21,490 nt of DNA from a virus. The position numbers were made by a program, and so were the translations under genes. The DNA lies in IMG/VR virus record IMGVR_UViG_3300042691_000179, positions 1-21,490 of that record; one strand, 5' to 3'. Positions 11,443 to 21,370 of this stretch are shown here, piece by piece (the stretch's first letter is position 1; every line of letters starts with the position of its first letter). The notes below the pieces were generated by a model. The model was not told the origin of the DNA. It ran no database searches and worked only from the letters and a program-made list of their open reading frames with translations.

Positions 11443-12024
11443 ATGAGCAAGATAGCCCTATCAGGTGACGCAAGCGGAACAGGTACGTTCACCATTGCGT
11501 CTCCAAACTCAAACAGCAACTACACGCTGACGCTTCCGGCAAATACCGGGACTTTGCTTTCTACTGCGTCCAATCTTGCTGGTTTGACTGGCGCGGGGAA
11601 AATACTTCAGGTCGTTCAGAGCAATCAATTTAGTGGTGTGACAACCACCTCTGGTTCTGCTCAATTTTCCTCTTCTACCCCATCTATTACGCCTTCTGCC
11701 ACATCCAGCAAAATTTTGCAGTTATGGGCAACCTCTGTAATTGTTGATTGTGATAACGATTCGCAAGGTTCAAACAACGGCTTTGTGCGTTTCGAGTATC
11801 AAATTGGCGGCACTGGCGGCGCATGGTCTTCGTTGGGTCAGTTTACTGTGCCCGGGCGCGGCGGTAACGGTACTTTCACAAATGCTGTCTTTTTGAGTTC
11901 TTTGTCTACCACCAGCACCGTTTACTTCCGCATGGGTATTGGTAAAGAAGAGGGTGCTCGCAACATTCTGATTAACGATGCTTGGGGCAGTAACCGTGTA
12001 TTTTTGCTGGAGGTGGGAGCATGA
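11443..12024 (+). CDS. Tail fibre protein 4
   Basis: A 193-residue protein preceded by AAAGGAGTAACGT. The short shaft (SGDASGTGTFTIASPNSNS, then YTLTLPANTGTLLSTAS) is a relative of the shaft of fibre 3. The C-terminal ~130 residues are a beta domain (GKILQVVQSNQFSGVTTTSG; SSKILQLWATSVIVDCDND; FRMGIGKEEGARNILINDAW; RVFLLEVGA) without a family name known to me; the end resembles other phage receptor-binding jelly rolls. It is followed by a chaperone-like gene that overlaps its stop by four bases. Shared shaft with a different tip suggests domain swapping between fibres 3 and 4. Confidence 0.82.
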   Translation: MSKIALSGDASGTGTFTIASPNSNSNYTLTLPANTGTLLSTASNLAGLTGAGKILQVVQSNQFSGVTTTSGSAQFSSSTPSITPSATSSKILQLWATSVIVDCDNDSQGSNNGFVRFEYQIGGTGGAWSSLGQFTVPGRGGNGTFTNAVFLSSLSTTSTVYFRMGIGKEEGARNILINDAWGSNRVFLLEVGA

Positions 12025-12320
12025 CAACAATCGTAAAAGCACTCCTCTCGTTGCGCCCCGGCGCTGAGTGGACGATACACGGCGAAGATCAGTTGGAATG
12101 GCTCGATCAAAAGCAAACGCGCCCCACTGATGCTGAAATTCAAGCCGAGGTTGCTCGCCTTCAGGCCGCAGAGCCTGCGCGTATTGCAGGAGAAAAGCGC
12201 CGAGTGGCTTATACCTACGAAGCCGACCCTCTGTTCTTCAAAGCACAACGAGGCGAAGCCACAATGTCTGAGTGGCAAGCCAAAGTGGCTGAAATCAAAG
12301 CCCGTTACCCGAAGGAGTAA
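12021..12320 (+). CDS. Fibre-associated small protein with XkdW-like middle
   Basis: A 99-residue protein whose ATG overlaps the fibre 4 stop; GGAGGTGGGAG is its ribosome site. It starts MTTIVKALLSLRPGAEWTIH, then LEWLDQKQTRPTDAEIQAEV, a helical segment with a PTDAEI turn typical of small tail-fibre assembly proteins, and ends in AYTYEADPLFFKAQRGEATM followed by SEWQAKVAEIKARYP. I recognise the C-terminal block from phage proteins next to fibres. A chaperone-like role is inferred from position after a fibre gene. AAGGAG near its 3' end serves as the ribosome site for the short reading frame at 12324. Confidence 0.8.
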   Translation: MTTIVKALLSLRPGAEWTIHGEDQLEWLDQKQTRPTDAEIQAEVARLQAAEPARIAGEKRRVAYTYEADPLFFKAQRGEATMSEWQAKVAEIKARYPKE

Positions 12321-12323
12321 ACC

Positions 12324-12359
12324 ATGCCCAGCATAATCAACAGTGTGAGGATTGAATGA
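12324..12359 (+). pseudogene. Detached first codons of a fibre gene (11-residue leader)
   Basis: An ATG at 12324 with a perfect AAGGAG six bases upstream opens a frame of only 11 residues that begins MPSIIN and stops at 12357-12359. The fibre gene beyond the endonuclease begins MPSILN at 12957. The 18 bases 12324-12341 and 12957-12974 match at 15 positions. The stop of the short frame overlaps the endonuclease ATG 12356 (ATGA), so its translation would couple to the endonuclease. The simplest reading is that it is the original start of the fibre gene, cut off by the insertion. A deliberate leader peptide cannot be excluded. Confidence 0.65.
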
Positions 12360-12964
12360 CAGCCAGACTGCCAACGGAAGTTTGTCATCTGTACCGCATT
12401 ACTGATACGGTACGGGGCAAGTTTTACATTGGCAAACATCGTGGCTCAGAAAAATCTTCATATTGGGGAAGCGGAAGACGAATTCGATCTCATGTAAAAA
12501 AGTACGGCTCTCAAGACCTTATTTACGAAATACTGGTGATTGGAACCGAGGAGTACATTTATGAAATCGAGAAAAAATATGTCACGGATGAATTTATTGC
12601 ATCCAATTCAAACTGTTTAAACCTTTGTGCTGGCGGTATTGGCGGCAACATGGGTCACGGTGCTTGGAACAAAGGGAAAAAATGGGATGACGCCGCCAAA
12701 GAAAAAATGAGGCTGGCAAAACTTGGAAAGGTTAGTCCACGCAAAGGGGCGGTTAATAGCCCAGAGCATCGTTTAAAAATTAGTCTTGCTCGTGTGGGTA
12801 AAGTTTGCATTACCGAAGAAGCGAGAAAAAAGTTAAGCGCGATTAACAAAGGAAAAGTTTGGGAAAGGGTGGATTGCCCTCATTGCGGCAAGTCTGTTCC
12901 TTGGCATATGCGTAACCAAAAGCATTTCGATAAATGCGAAAGAAAGGATTTTAACTATGCCTAG
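12356..12964 (+). CDS. GIY-YIG homing endonuclease with NUMOD3 motifs and Cys/His C-terminus
   Basis: A 202-residue protein. The N-terminal domain has CHLYRIT (10-16) and FYIGKH (23-28) in place of a standard GIY/YIG pair. YWGSGRRI follows near 36-43, and a Glu-rich helix YIYEIEKKYV (67-76) should hold the metal ligand. Several NUMOD3-like GKxxxxxxxxK units lie near 107-167 (NKGKKWDDAAKEKMRLAKLG; SPEHRLKISLARVGK; TEEARKKLSAINKGK). The C-terminus has CPHC (174-177) with later His and Cys (HMRNQKHFDKC), a zinc-finger-like end common in phage endonucleases. The gene is plainly more A/T-rich than its neighbours. The last codons overlap the fibre start ATG 12957, and GAAAGGATTTTAACT provides that start's ribosome site. 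It differs in subtype from the endonuclease at 1629. Confidence 0.9.
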   Translation: MTARLPTEVCHLYRITDTVRGKFYIGKHRGSEKSSYWGSGRRIRSHVKKYGSQDLIYEILVIGTEEYIYEIEKKYVTDEFIASNSNCLNLCAGGIGGNMGHGAWNKGKKWDDAAKEKMRLAKLGKVSPRKGAVNSPEHRLKISLARVGKVCITEEARKKLSAINKGKVWERVDCPHCGKSVPWHMRNQKHFDKCERKDFNYA

Positions 12965-13646
12965 CATATTGAACTCAGATGACGGAGTAGTCTCCGGTAC
13001 GTCTGGTCTAAAGACCACGGGCGGGAATGATGGTGTTACCGTTTTCCAGCAAAACGGTACTGAGGCTGCGCGTATCAGCGCAGCAAGTAATGTCGGTATT
13101 GGCACCACAAATGCTGGCGCATTTAGACTTGCGGTGGTCGGTTCTCGCATTCAATTATCTGGAGGCTCGACATCGCAAGAGGGTATAGCAATTCAACGTA
13201 TTGCTGGCGCTGCAACCATTACTGGAATCAATAATGACAACAATGCGTACAACGATGTTGCTTTATATGCTGGCGCGTCGGAGGGTGCGAGGCTTACCAC
13301 TGGCGGTCTTTTCCAATTCAACTCCGGTTACGGCTCAGTAGCCACAGCATACGGATGTCGCTCTTGGGTAAACTTTAACGGCACAGGTACGGTGGCAATC
13401 CGTGCTTCGGGTAATGTGTCCAGCATTACGGATAACGGAACAGGCAATTACACAGTTAACTTCACGACTGCATTTGTTGACACCAGTTATTCTGGGGTTT
13501 TTGGGTGCAATGACAACGGGAATACGAGCACTATGTGTTACCGAACAGGTGGCACAAAATCAACCACCGCCTTCCAAGTTAGCACGGCTTCAGGGGTGGC
13601 TGTTCTTGCTGACAATGATATGTGTATGGTTGCTGTTTTCCGTTAA
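12957..13646 (+). CDS. Tail fibre protein 5 (receptor-binding type)
   Basis: A 229-residue protein. It begins MPSILNSDDGVVSGTSGLK, followed by a fibre shaft with SNVGIGTTNAGAFRLAVVG, the VGIGTTxxxxxLxV element common in trimeric fibre proteins. The last ~100 residues (YGCRSWVNFNGTGTVAIRAS, then GNVSSITDNGTGNYTVNF, then CMVAVFR) form a tip domain that I recognise from many phage fibres. No S74 peptidase domain is seen. Its ATG lies inside the end of the endonuclease gene, and its first 18 bases are repeated upstream of that gene. It is followed by accessory genes at 13663 and 13917. Confidence 0.87.
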   Translation: MPSILNSDDGVVSGTSGLKTTGGNDGVTVFQQNGTEAARISAASNVGIGTTNAGAFRLAVVGSRIQLSGGSTSQEGIAIQRIAGAATITGINNDNNAYNDVALYAGASEGARLTTGGLFQFNSGYGSVATAYGCRSWVNFNGTGTVAIRASGNVSSITDNGTGNYTVNFTTAFVDTSYSGVFGCNDNGNTSTMCYRTGGTKSTTAFQVSTASGVAVLADNDMCMVAVFR

Positions 13647-18680: not shown

Positions 18681-20468
18681 ATGCAATATCCCACAATTGC
18701 CCAACCACAATTCGCATTCGCCCCCACTTTTGCTGGAGGCGGGCTGGCTAACGCCGCGCAGGCAGTTCAGTCTCGGGGTCGCGGCAACGACACCATGCTG
18801 GTTCACATGACCCCCGGCGAGGTAAAGGGGTTGCAGGCACTGGCGTTGGCGCATGGCGGTTCCCTAACAATCAACCCTGCTACGGGTTTACCCGAAGCCG
18901 GATTCCTCGACGCTATCCTGCCTATCGTGGCGGGTTTTGCACTTGGCCCTGCTGGTTTTGCTCTGATGTCTGCCCCGATGGCGGCGCTGACTGTGGGTGG
19001 CGTAACGGCTTTGAGCACGGGCGACCTCGGCAAAGGCCTGATGGCGGGTCTGGGCGCATTCGGCGGTGCTAACCTTGGTGCCGCTCTGTCGTCTACGGGT
19101 ACTGAAGCAGCCAAAACAGCAATGTTGCCTAGTGGCGGTATGTCTGTCGCAGAAAGCATCCCCGCCAGTATGGGCGGTACGGGTGCTACGACAGGTTCTA
19201 CGCTTGCGGACATCACTGGAAAAGCGGCTTCTGCGTCTGGTCCGATGTCGATGGCTCCGTGGGCACAACCCAGCGTAGCCTCTCAACTGGGCGTTTCTTC
19301 CGCTCCGGTGGCAATGACGCCGTCTCAAGTGGCGGCTTTGCAATCGACGGCTCCGACTGGGTTCAGTAGTGTTGGCTCAGGCATTGCTGACTTGGCTTCC
19401 CCCGGTGGTTTTTCCCGTTTTGGTAACGCATTCATGAATGCTTCCGGCGGCGGTATGGGTACGGCTATGGGTGCGTACGGTATGGCGGCTCCTGTTTTGG
19501 ACGCAGTTCAGCCTTCCTACGAGTTTCCTAACGTTGCCGAAGCCACCAGTTCTAACTATGCAGGGCCATACGTACCGACCCCCCGTGAGGTACGGTTCAA
19601 GCCTGAAGATGACACCAGCACTTCGGAGTTCACCTACTTCACCCCGTCTAACCCTGTTCCGGGGTATCAGCCAATGAATGCTGCGGCTGGTGGTTACATG
19701 CAACGCTACCAAGAAGGTGGTGAGGTCATGCCGCGAGTGAGCGACATGGTGCGTCCTGCTCCTGAAGTCATTCAGACGCTGCCCGCTGTACCTGAGTCAG
19801 CCAATCAGGGGATGACTGCCTCGTTGTTCAATAAAAACTTTCTTGGTGCCGAGCCTGCCAATTTGACCGAGCATAGTGGTATGGAGAGCATGGTGCGCTA
19901 CCAAGAGGGTGGCAACGTTGAAGATCGCGCCCTGCGTATGCCTGCTGACCTCAGCCGTGTCGGGACTGCACCTGAGTTCAATCACAATTTCCGCCCCATC
20001 GAGGTGATGGCTCCTGCCCAAAGTGCTGCCCCTGAACCTGCTGGTTTCGGTGGCCTCATCTCGCGTGCGATGCGAGACATCTTTGACCGTGAGGGGAAGT
20101 CCAATTACACCGACTTGTCCAAGTTCAAGTACGACCCCAACACCCAACGCATGGTGCCGATGGCACAAGGTGGACTGGCTGCGCTCAATGCCTACAACAA
20201 AGGCGGCACCCCTGTGGGTGGTCGTTTCCTGCAAGGAGCAGGCGACGGCACTAGCGACTCTATCCCCGCCACGATAGGCGGAAGTCAACCAGCACGTCTG
20301 GCTGATGGCGAGTTTGTGGTGGATGCTCGCACTGTGTCCGAGATTGGTAACGGCTCTTCTAAGGCTGGTGCCAAGAAGTTGTACGCCATGATGGAGCGTG
20401 TGCACAGCGCACGCAAGAAAGCCAAGCGTGGTCAGGACACTAAAGCAGACAGGTACTTGCCAGCATGA
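18681..20468 (+). CDS. Glycine-rich probable internal/ejection protein
   Basis: From ATG 18681 the product has 595 residues; an upstream in-frame TTG 18675 lies nearer to GAGGA (18666-18670), so the start is uncertain by two codons. The first part has RGRGNDTMLVHMTPGEVKGL and ALAHGGSLTINPATGLPEAG, blocks I have seen in similar phage proteins. A hydrophobic glycine/alanine segment follows (FLDAILPIVAGFALGPAGFA, about 74-93), possibly membrane-inserting. The middle is low complexity with YQEGGEV, YQEGGNV and MAQGGLA units. The end, GGRFLQGAGDGTSDSIPATI followed by ARLADGEFVVDARTVSEIGN, is a widely seen phage C-terminus. Size, hydrophobic segment and place after the tail genes suggest an ejected virion protein; this is inference. 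Confidence 0.75.
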   Translation: MQYPTIAQPQFAFAPTFAGGGLANAAQAVQSRGRGNDTMLVHMTPGEVKGLQALALAHGGSLTINPATGLPEAGFLDAILPIVAGFALGPAGFALMSAPMAALTVGGVTALSTGDLGKGLMAGLGAFGGANLGAALSSTGTEAAKTAMLPSGGMSVAESIPASMGGTGATTGSTLADITGKAASASGPMSMAPWAQPSVASQLGVSSAPVAMTPSQVAALQSTAPTGFSSVGSGIADLASPGGFSRFGNAFMNASGGGMGTAMGAYGMAAPVLDAVQPSYEFPNVAEATSSNYAGPYVPTPREVRFKPEDDTSTSEFTYFTPSNPVPGYQPMNAAAGGYMQRYQEGGEVMPRVSDMVRPAPEVIQTLPAVPESANQGMTASLFNKNFLGAEPANLTEHSGMESMVRYQEGGNVEDRALRMPADLSRVGTAPEFNHNFRPIEVMAPAQSAAPEPAGFGGLISRAMRDIFDREGKSNYTDLSKFKYDPNTQRMVPMAQGGLAALNAYNKGGTPVGGRFLQGAGDGTSDSIPATIGGSQPARLADGEFVVDARTVSEIGNGSSKAGAKKLYAMMERVHSARKKAKRGQDTKADRYLPA

Positions 20469-21370
20469 TGGAACTACAGATAAGCACTCTATGGATTGAG
20501 CGGCTTTTGAAGAAGCCCTTCCATAAGCATTGTCTGTTGGGGGACAAGAAGTTCTTCGATCCCTATTCCTTCCCGGTAGCAAAAGAGTTGGAAGACAATT
20601 TTCCAGCCATTCAAGCCGAACTTAAAGACATCCTTAAGCGTTACGACGACTTCGCTCCGTTTCAAAGCATCTCGCCTGACCAGACTTACATCTCCAACGA
20701 CGACAAGTGGCGAATGTTTTTCTTTAAGGCGGCTGGGGTGAACTTCGGACGCAACCAACAATTTGCACCAAAGACCTTCGAGATTCTGAACAAACACAAG
20801 TATGTAATTTCAGCCTACATATCTGTGCTTGGTCCCCATAAAATGCTCATGCCGCATGAAGGTCCGTGGTCTGGCATTCTGCGTATGCACTTGGGGGTGG
20901 TTATCCCCGGCAACAAAGAGTGCACGTTGGTCAACGGTGGCGAGAAGTACCACTGGGAGGAAGGCAAGGTAGTCCTGTTTGACGATACGTACGAGCACAT
21001 TGCTGTGAACGAAACCGATCAGATTCGGGCTATCCTATTCTTGGATGTGATGCGTCCCTTGCCGCAACCGTGGAAGTTCATCAACTGGGCGATCCTGCGC
21101 CTGTCGGTTCTGTTTCCGTATATTTGGATTCCGTACTTCCGGCACAAGCGATGGGAGAAGCGGTTCTACGGAGAAAAAGAATGCAATGCACAATGGTCCC
21201 TAGCGAGCACGTTAAAGAAATTTGGAGCCAAGTTGAAGGCTACCTCGAAGGGGCTGCTGAGTACACTCATGGTCGGTATGACGTGGATGACATCTACGAC
21301 TCGATCATGGGCTACGACCATACGCTCTGGATTGCTTTCACGGACGAAGGCATCAAAGGGGCAGTCGTGA
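20465..21370 (+). CDS. Aspartyl/asparaginyl beta-hydroxylase-like dioxygenase with doubtful 3' end
   Basis: From ATG 20465 the frame codes 301 residues; 1-238 form the believable protein. Its core resembles aspartyl/asparaginyl beta-hydroxylases (Fe(II)/2-oxoglutarate enzymes). Visible parts are MPHEGPWSGILRMHLGV (129-145) with iron ligand His131 and Gly133 where other families have Asp, ECTLVNGGEKYHWEEGKVV (152-170), and FDDTYEHIAVN (172-182) with the second ligand His178. Arg188, ten residues later, matches the spacing of the 2-oxoglutarate-binding Arg in human AspH. A hydrophobic WKFINWAILRLSVLFPYIW segment follows. After GEKE (~residue 239) the frame reads across the next gene in another phase and looks like noise. 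The ATG overlaps the previous stop. Substrate unknown. Confidence 0.82.
   Translation: MMELQISTLWIERLLKKPFHKHCLLGDKKFFDPYSFPVAKELEDNFPAIQAELKDILKRYDDFAPFQSISPDQTYISNDDKWRMFFFKAAGVNFGRNQQFAPKTFEILNKHKYVISAYISVLGPHKMLMPHEGPWSGILRMHLGVVIPGNKECTLVNGGEKYHWEEGKVVLFDDTYEHIAVNETDQIRAILFLDVMRPLPQPWKFINWAILRLSVLFPYIWIPYFRHKRWEKRFYGEKECNAQWSLASTLKKFGAKLKATSKGLLSTLMVGMTWMTSTTRSWATTIRSGLLSRTKASKGQS

Follow-up and report, generated by a model that had tools for sequence, protein, structure and literature searches.

A probable GIY-YIG homing endonuclease gene lodged after codon 7 of a phage tail-fibre gene, with a recoded replacement of the severed start

Mobile ORFs of fungal mitochondria (Allomyces atp6; Glomus atp6, atp9, cox2 and nad3) carry diverged replacement C-termini for the genes that they enter; the native end is left behind, and it is closer to the sequence of insert-free relatives than the replacement is (PMC3630166). 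In phages, T4 mobA (gene 39/60), Aeh1 mobE (nrdA) and seg43 of Aeromonas phage 25 (gene 43) are associated with genes that have been split into two working pieces (PMC2988022, PMC3014915). A third arrangement, the Cas9-based home-and-rescue drive HomeR, was engineered in flies (PMC7968924).

How does the locus described here compare with these systems? As in the fungal mitochondrial elements, an endonuclease ORF lies within a protein gene together with a diverged copy of the severed end, and the native remnant is retained. The fungal elements, however, replace a C-terminal end, for which no new start or ribosome site is needed, whereas the phage element replaces the N-terminal seven codons and has a bacterial ribosome site and a stop/start overlap. 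With mobA, mobE and seg43 it shares a free-standing phage homing endonuclease and a split essential gene that stays functional, and stop/start overlaps with neighbors are common in that class. The targets of those three enzymes yield two proteins; in contrast, the duplicated, recoded start would here allow the whole target to be made as a single protein. Domain order, size, GIY-YIG residues and a zinc-binding C-terminus are those of Seg-type GIY-YIG endonucleases with NUMOD3 repeats (phrog_314; SegD/SegE), but typical members of that group are placed between genes, and this one carries a replacement gene start. The likeness to HomeR is that a nuclease would home into an essential gene while carrying a rescue copy of its target; unlike that synthetic drive, the element is natural, and the cleavage resistance of its rescue copy is presumed. 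In the open-access papers searched, we found no precedent for a phage homing endonuclease with a recoded start for its target gene.

Layout of the locus and its endonuclease

The window, that is, the whole stretch of 21,490 nucleotides that was analyzed, is positions 1 to 21,490 of an uncultured virus contig (IMG/VR record IMGVR_UViG_3300042691_000179). A small gene of the PHROG 9114 type (12021-12320) is followed by the endonuclease gene (12356-12964) and the tail-fibre gene (12957-13646). The features of the locus are as follows.

12312..12317, plus strand: AAGGAG, the fibre gene's native ribosome-binding site, today preceding the leader; equal position in the empty sites L170, L172 and L184
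12324..12344, plus strand: the fibre's original codons 1-7 (MPSIINS), remaining as the beginning of the leader; 21/21 bases as in the uninterrupted start of L170, L172 and L184
12324..12359, plus strand: 11-codon leader (MPSIINSVRIE, then stop), with an ATGA overlap with the endonuclease start; read from the sequence, arrangement kept in L084
12345..12977, plus strand: inserted element, 633 bp, at the native boundary of codons 7 and 8; from the empty-site comparison, and 622/633 identical in L083
12347..12350, plus strand: GAGG, a possible weak ribosome site for the endonuclease; read from the sequence, anti-SD duplex -6.0, spacer 3
12356..12964, plus strand: GIY-YIG/NUMOD3/zinc-finger homing endonuclease, 202 aa; from PHROG 314, NUMOD3 and family residues
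12943..12948, plus strand: AAAGGA, replacement ribosome site within the endonuclease's final codons; read from the sequence, anti-SD duplex -5.4, spacer 7
12957..12977, plus strand: replacement ("rescue") fibre codons 1-7, recoded (MPSILNS); 15/21 bases as in the old start
12978..13646, plus strand: native fibre gene, codon 8 to stop; 56 bp of right flank as in L170/L184, mosaic fibre body beyond

The leader's stop codon (TGA, 12357-12359) overlaps the endonuclease's ATG, and the endonuclease's own TAG stop sits in fibre codons 2-3 (CC TAG C in one frame, CCT AGC in the other). A distance of 633 bp separates the leader ATG (12324) from the fibre ATG (12957), and both open the same reading frame; in a window-wide scan with a degenerate start, allowing at most one mismatch, these two starts were the only matches. 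From ATG 12957 the fibre (229 aa) reads MPSILNSDDGV..., and its C-terminal half matches the PHROG 11355 tail fibre (4.5e-14). Among the three starts, the native ribosome site forms the strongest anti-SD duplex (-8.3 kcal/mol). Counterparts of the replacement ribosome site exist in L084 and L086.

These positions agree with a preliminary description of the locus, which had AAGGAG and ATG 12324 open an 11-residue MPSIIN frame and ATG 12957 open the full fibre with MPSILN inside the last codons of the endonuclease, whose 3' end was said to supply both a replacement ribosome site and the new start. The 15 matches that it counted between the two 18-base starts were reproduced; taken over codons 1-7, the 21-mers also match at 15 of 21 positions. 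Its statement that the endonuclease is plainly more A/T-rich than its neighbors stands for one side of the gene: the endonuclease has about 42-46% GC vs. 52-54% just upstream, but the fibre itself has 47-51%.

The endonuclease matched the homing endonuclease profile PHROG 314 (3e-27, residues 9-185) and NUMOD3 (1.1e-5, above cut-off); its match to SegE_GIY-YIG was weak and under the curated cut-off (E = 0.004). In the family alignment, GIY-YIG or SegE_GIY-YIG was matched by 18-19 of the 29 members; Y13, Y24, G26 and N89 are invariant across the 29 sequences, E72 is nearly so, and the zinc-finger residues C174, C177, H190 and C194 are kept in the near clade. The predicted model has an N-terminal domain of high pLDDT with the expected strand-strand-helix-strand-helix order. 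A Foldseek comparison of the predicted fold with the PDB returned no significant match.

At the 3' ends of the endonuclease genes in the window, L084, L086, L320 and L398, a Shine-Dalgarno sequence for the next gene (AAAGGA to AGGAG) lies after the last zinc-finger cysteine codon; this looks like a common feature of the endonuclease group. The window holds a second GIY-YIG endonuclease gene at 1593-2219 (SCGIYKIVNKATG...YVG; it starts near 1593-1641 and ends at 2219), with a capsid-like gene on one side. The gene after it has an ATG that overlaps the endonuclease stop (TAATG) behind AAAGGAG; we looked for a doubling of that gene's MAQTRF start and saw none. An aspartyl/asparaginyl beta-hydroxylase domain (Pfam 9.7e-41) is encoded at 20465-21370, in the phage structural region.

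An insert that splits a gene and leaves leader and fibre in the same frame invites the idea that the endonuclease resides in an intron or intein, whose splicing would restore the fibre by joining it to the leader. Nearly all of the insert, however, is endonuclease coding sequence plus replacement codons, and splicing gives no reason for the fibre to have a further in-frame start and a ribosome site to go with it. A group I intron- or intein-encoded endonuclease was rejected on three observations: the window has no Rfam match, hence no intron family, there is no room outside the endonuclease ORF, and the fibre restarts itself. We regard splicing as very improbable.

Empty sites and the insertion point

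Empty sites were located by scanning relatives for MPS-type fibre starts. In three endonuclease-free relatives (L170, L172 and L184), ATGCCCAGCATAATCAACAGT runs directly into GATGACGGAGTAGTC... without interruption. The context in all three reads ...CCCAAAGGAGTAAACC ATGCCCAGCATAATCAACAGT GATGACGGAGTAGTCTCCGG..., and the upstream gene and the ribosome site, the latter as AAAGGAGTAAACC ATG, are those of the window. The left flank of L172 is 94.6% identical to that of the window over 700 bp. From codon 8 onward, 56 of 56 bases are identical between the window and L170/L184, and the fibre bodies diverge beyond that; both relatives then rejoin the gene that comes next in the window (93.9% over 311 bp), which leaves one MPSI fibre at this place. 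The boundary of the insert is exact: codon 7 (AGT) and codon 8 (GAT) are separated by 633 bp.

Because the empty sites are uninterrupted and identity resumes at codon 8, the leader represents the original fibre start, and the ATG at the far end of the insert is its replacement. The likeness between leader and fibre start is not a matter of chance, since the leader's 21 bases are those of the relatives' uninterrupted start. Insertion point, empty site, leader and replacement start are thereby established at the level of sequence comparison. The preliminary description had proposed that the insertion left the old start and ribosome site ahead of the endonuclease, and had pointed to endonuclease-free relatives as the place to look. 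There, the fibre begins at the position of 12324 with an uninterrupted MPSIINSDDGV and no second copy; neither a short MPSIIN frame kept in such relatives nor a lack of MPSI fibres among them, both of which were looked for, was seen. The alignments thus support that reader's interpretation of a split fibre start.

Could the locus instead derive from two neighboring fibre paralogues, the endonuclease having replaced the body of the first, so that the downstream fibre is the second with its natural start? These phages often have fibre paralogues in tandem (two adjacent copies in L009), and mosaic fibre cassettes do leave remnants of gene starts, as in L036. Yet only one MPSI fibre lies between these neighbor genes in L170 and L184, and the junction falls at codons 7/8 with 56/56 identity beyond. 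A codon-7 break is also found in a different fibre gene, and a tail chaperone gene, of which the relatives have one copy, is broken similarly after codon 6. We consider the paralogue explanation improbable; insertion into one fibre gene accounts for these observations.

In L036 (2980-3040), the gene that comes after an MPSIIN fibre has two starts: a truncated one (MNQRIIYPNDDGGVSA, then a stop) ahead of the fibre, and MNSRIIYPNDDGGVSV downstream of it, where the gene begins anew. Judged by their upstream sequence, L163, L178, L182 and L183 are arranged in the same way. We take the doubled start in L036 to be one left by insertion of a fibre cassette, with no endonuclease involved.

The first ~56 bp past codon 7 (12978-13033) are identical across phages with unrelated fibre bodies, and form a conserved 5' module. 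This module may be both a recombination handle and the endonuclease's target.

Mobility of the element is apparent from its surroundings. L082, identical to the window, is a second assembly of that virus and was left out of counts. L083 has the same insert (622/633) with a left flank that matches over only ~50 bp and another fibre body; in L085, the insert's 3' part (426/434 identical) stands ahead of yet another fibre body. The flanks of near-identical inserts thus differ beyond ~50 bp on the left and 56-128 bp on the right. A mobile element predicts just this, a near-identical insert in different surroundings. Presence and absence are seen at one site: it is occupied in the window/L082, L083 and L084 and empty in L170, L172 and L184. 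Close-clade relatives of the endonuclease were sought in genome contigs, and none were found; a DNA search of the phages collection gave one weak match only.

Recurrence of start doubling and recoding of the new start

Is the doubled start peculiar to the window element (A)? Element B, in L084, encodes an endonuclease that is 73% identical. It has an 11-codon leader (MPSILNS-KVKT, then stop), an ATGA overlap and the replacement MPSVINS; leader length and overlap are thus conserved with respect to the window, though codons 8-11 (KVKT) differ. The leader of element B, ATGCCTAGCATATTGAACTCC, shares 20 of its 21 bases with the rescue copy in the window. It is as if element B had entered an allele that element A had respelled earlier and added another recoding, a reading suggested by this one observation.

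Element C (L086, L087 and L088; endonuclease 47% identical) is located in a different fibre gene. Here the N-terminus of the endonuclease (MTTTINA-AHLYK) consists of the old start, ATGACCACGACGATCAACGCG, joined to it in frame. Downstream comes AAAGGAGCCTAAA GTGGTCACTACAGTAAACGCG|GACACCGTTACAGG (VVTTVNA-DTVTGG), a recoded restart that begins with GTG. Its empty sites (L316-L319) have an uninterrupted start, the right flank is 98% identical over 51 bp, and the break is again after codon 7.

A further case (E) is in the cultured Pseudomonas phage vB_PF_Y1-MI (OR500437.1, locus L398, 1474-2415), in which the endonuclease begins MAIGQK-FWFLYK and the tail assembly chaperone MAISQK-TVTIK. In the endonuclease-free phages Bitten, UAVern, ventosus, Amme-3 and XD2, the chaperone gene comes directly after the upstream structural gene and begins MAI[GNQ]QK. 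In clade D (L320/L386/L390), the fibre restarts as MPNLLVA ahead of GNSTNGG, and most empty relatives have MANIITA there; its left side is eroded and L389 is recoded with no endonuclease. The start doubling of clade D is only suggestive, and it was not counted as a clean case.

Among distinct endonuclease loci that have an ORF adjacent on the downstream side, 5 of 59 reached a start-doubling score of at least 10 (A twice, B, C and E), vs. 43 of 11,613 pairings in a re-paired control; control pairings with scores of 13-14 most likely combine A with B, both members of the doubled family. Recurrence in other genes is thus established as well. That three target genes are affected means either at least three separate events or one target-changing element that takes up new starts.

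These figures bear on an alternative in which the likeness of the MPSIIN frame to the fibre start is coincidental and the endonuclease merely lies between genes. Most relatives in the family do sit between genes without a doubling. Nevertheless, the leader matches, at 21/21 positions, an uninterrupted start in relatives with the same upstream DNA, and start doubling is far above the re-paired background. Chance similarity was rejected on the empty sites and this background together, and we hold it to be exceedingly improbable.

Most endonuclease relatives with adjacent genes show no start doubling, and a clear doubling was sought in Ep020, Acj61, KARL-1, RB16, STP4-a, 50AhydR13PP and Aeromonas 25 with none found. 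In RB16, STP4-a, Acj61 and KARL-1 (L395, L396, L411 and L412), Seg-like genes lie between gp4 and gp2 and overlap or abut both. In Acj61, the endonuclease begins MNIF and gp2 begins MSIF, perhaps an older, eroded version of start doubling.

The 3' end of the window's insert carries ATGCCTAGCATATTGAACTCA (MPSILNS), that is, recoded codons 1-7. In codons 2-7, 6 of 18 bases differ between old start and replacement, vs. 0 of 56 beyond (Fisher p = 1e-4). The peptide is nearly retained (MPSILNS in place of MPSIINS). At serine 7, TCA stands where the old start has AGT, three base changes that leave the residue the same. In every leader/rescue pair the two copies differ (14-15 of 21 bases match), whereas codon 8 onward does not. 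Codon 5 is ATY in 9 of 10 distinct endonuclease-free MPS alleles and in no rescue copy of elements A, B and C.

Cleavage by I-TevI requires a CNNNG motif (PMC4065259). Each of the three native junctions that were compared has CNNNG across the break, and the motif is lost in 2 of 4 rescue copies; it is kept at the rescue junctions of the window (CTCAG) and L086. CNNNG as a cleavage motif here is only a hint. With the motif kept at the window's rescue junction, resistance would require other altered bases.

An alternative that concerns the purpose of the recoding, and leaves the insertion as it is, holds that the new start is a naturally divergent fibre allele joined by illegitimate recombination, its spelling functionless and unselected. 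Fibre starts do vary naturally: ten distinct endonuclease-free MPS alleles were found. One of them, L192 (7094, minus strand), has the native ribosome site and a recoded start spelled like the L083 rescue copy, and L389 (504) is its counterpart in the third clade (D), likewise with the native ribosome site, a recoded start and no endonuclease; the retention of CNNNG at the two rescue junctions fits this reading too. It does not predict, however, that every leader/rescue pair should differ while codon 8 onward stays unchanged, nor that ATY at codon 5, so prevalent in endonuclease-free alleles, should be absent from the rescue copies of A, B and C. Moreover, L192 and L389 may represent a donor allele of the replacement but are equally explicable as scars of endonuclease loss or escape alleles. 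We judge an unselected spelling to be quite possible, if somewhat doubtful; escape from self-cleavage may be what the recoding serves.

Proposed mechanism and significance

Taken as a whole, the locus is very probably the product of a free-standing GIY-YIG/NUMOD3 homing endonuclease that inserted in a tail-fibre gene between codons 7 and 8, carrying a ribosome site and a recoded replacement start. The enzyme would cut the intact 5' end of a fibre gene, an activity that is putative, and repair from the carrier copy would spread the element through flanking fibre and upstream homology. In the carrier, the old ribosome site and start would drive the 11-codon leader, and the ATGA overlap would couple translation of the endonuclease to the strong native site; this coupling is suggested by the overlap itself, which is conserved in L084. 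The native site, with a calculated duplex of -8.3 kcal/mol, would drive leader and endonuclease; the fibre would be made whole from the new start (-5.4), which lies within the final codons of the endonuclease. Recoding would prevent self-cutting, recombination out between two identical starts, or both. The respelling would be useful on either count, because an unaltered copy would re-create the target next to the endonuclease and, as a direct repeat of the old start, would offer a route to excision.

By bringing a ribosome site and a respelled start, a selfish nuclease with neither intron nor intein can lodge near the beginning of a structural gene that stays expressible. Annotation will often overlook the leader or mistake the N-terminus of the endonuclease, where the old start is fused to it, as the endonuclease's own. 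The locus further connects homing endonucleases with the beginnings of tail-fibre genes, which are host-range genes. A short conserved 5' module is common there to otherwise unrelated fibre bodies, and homing at such a module could help fibre shuffling.

More tentatively, these elements may be natural home-and-rescue drives in phages: a GIY-YIG clade that would cut the first codons of essential tail genes, with the recoded, cleavage-resistant start as antidote and successive elements tracking escape alleles. This broader reading is plausible, but we would not yet lean on it. For tests of the mechanism, vB_PF_Y1-MI is a practical cultured system. If the respelling does protect from self-cleavage, these phage elements would be a natural counterpart of engineered rescue drives, and the gain and loss of resistance alleles in nature would become testable.
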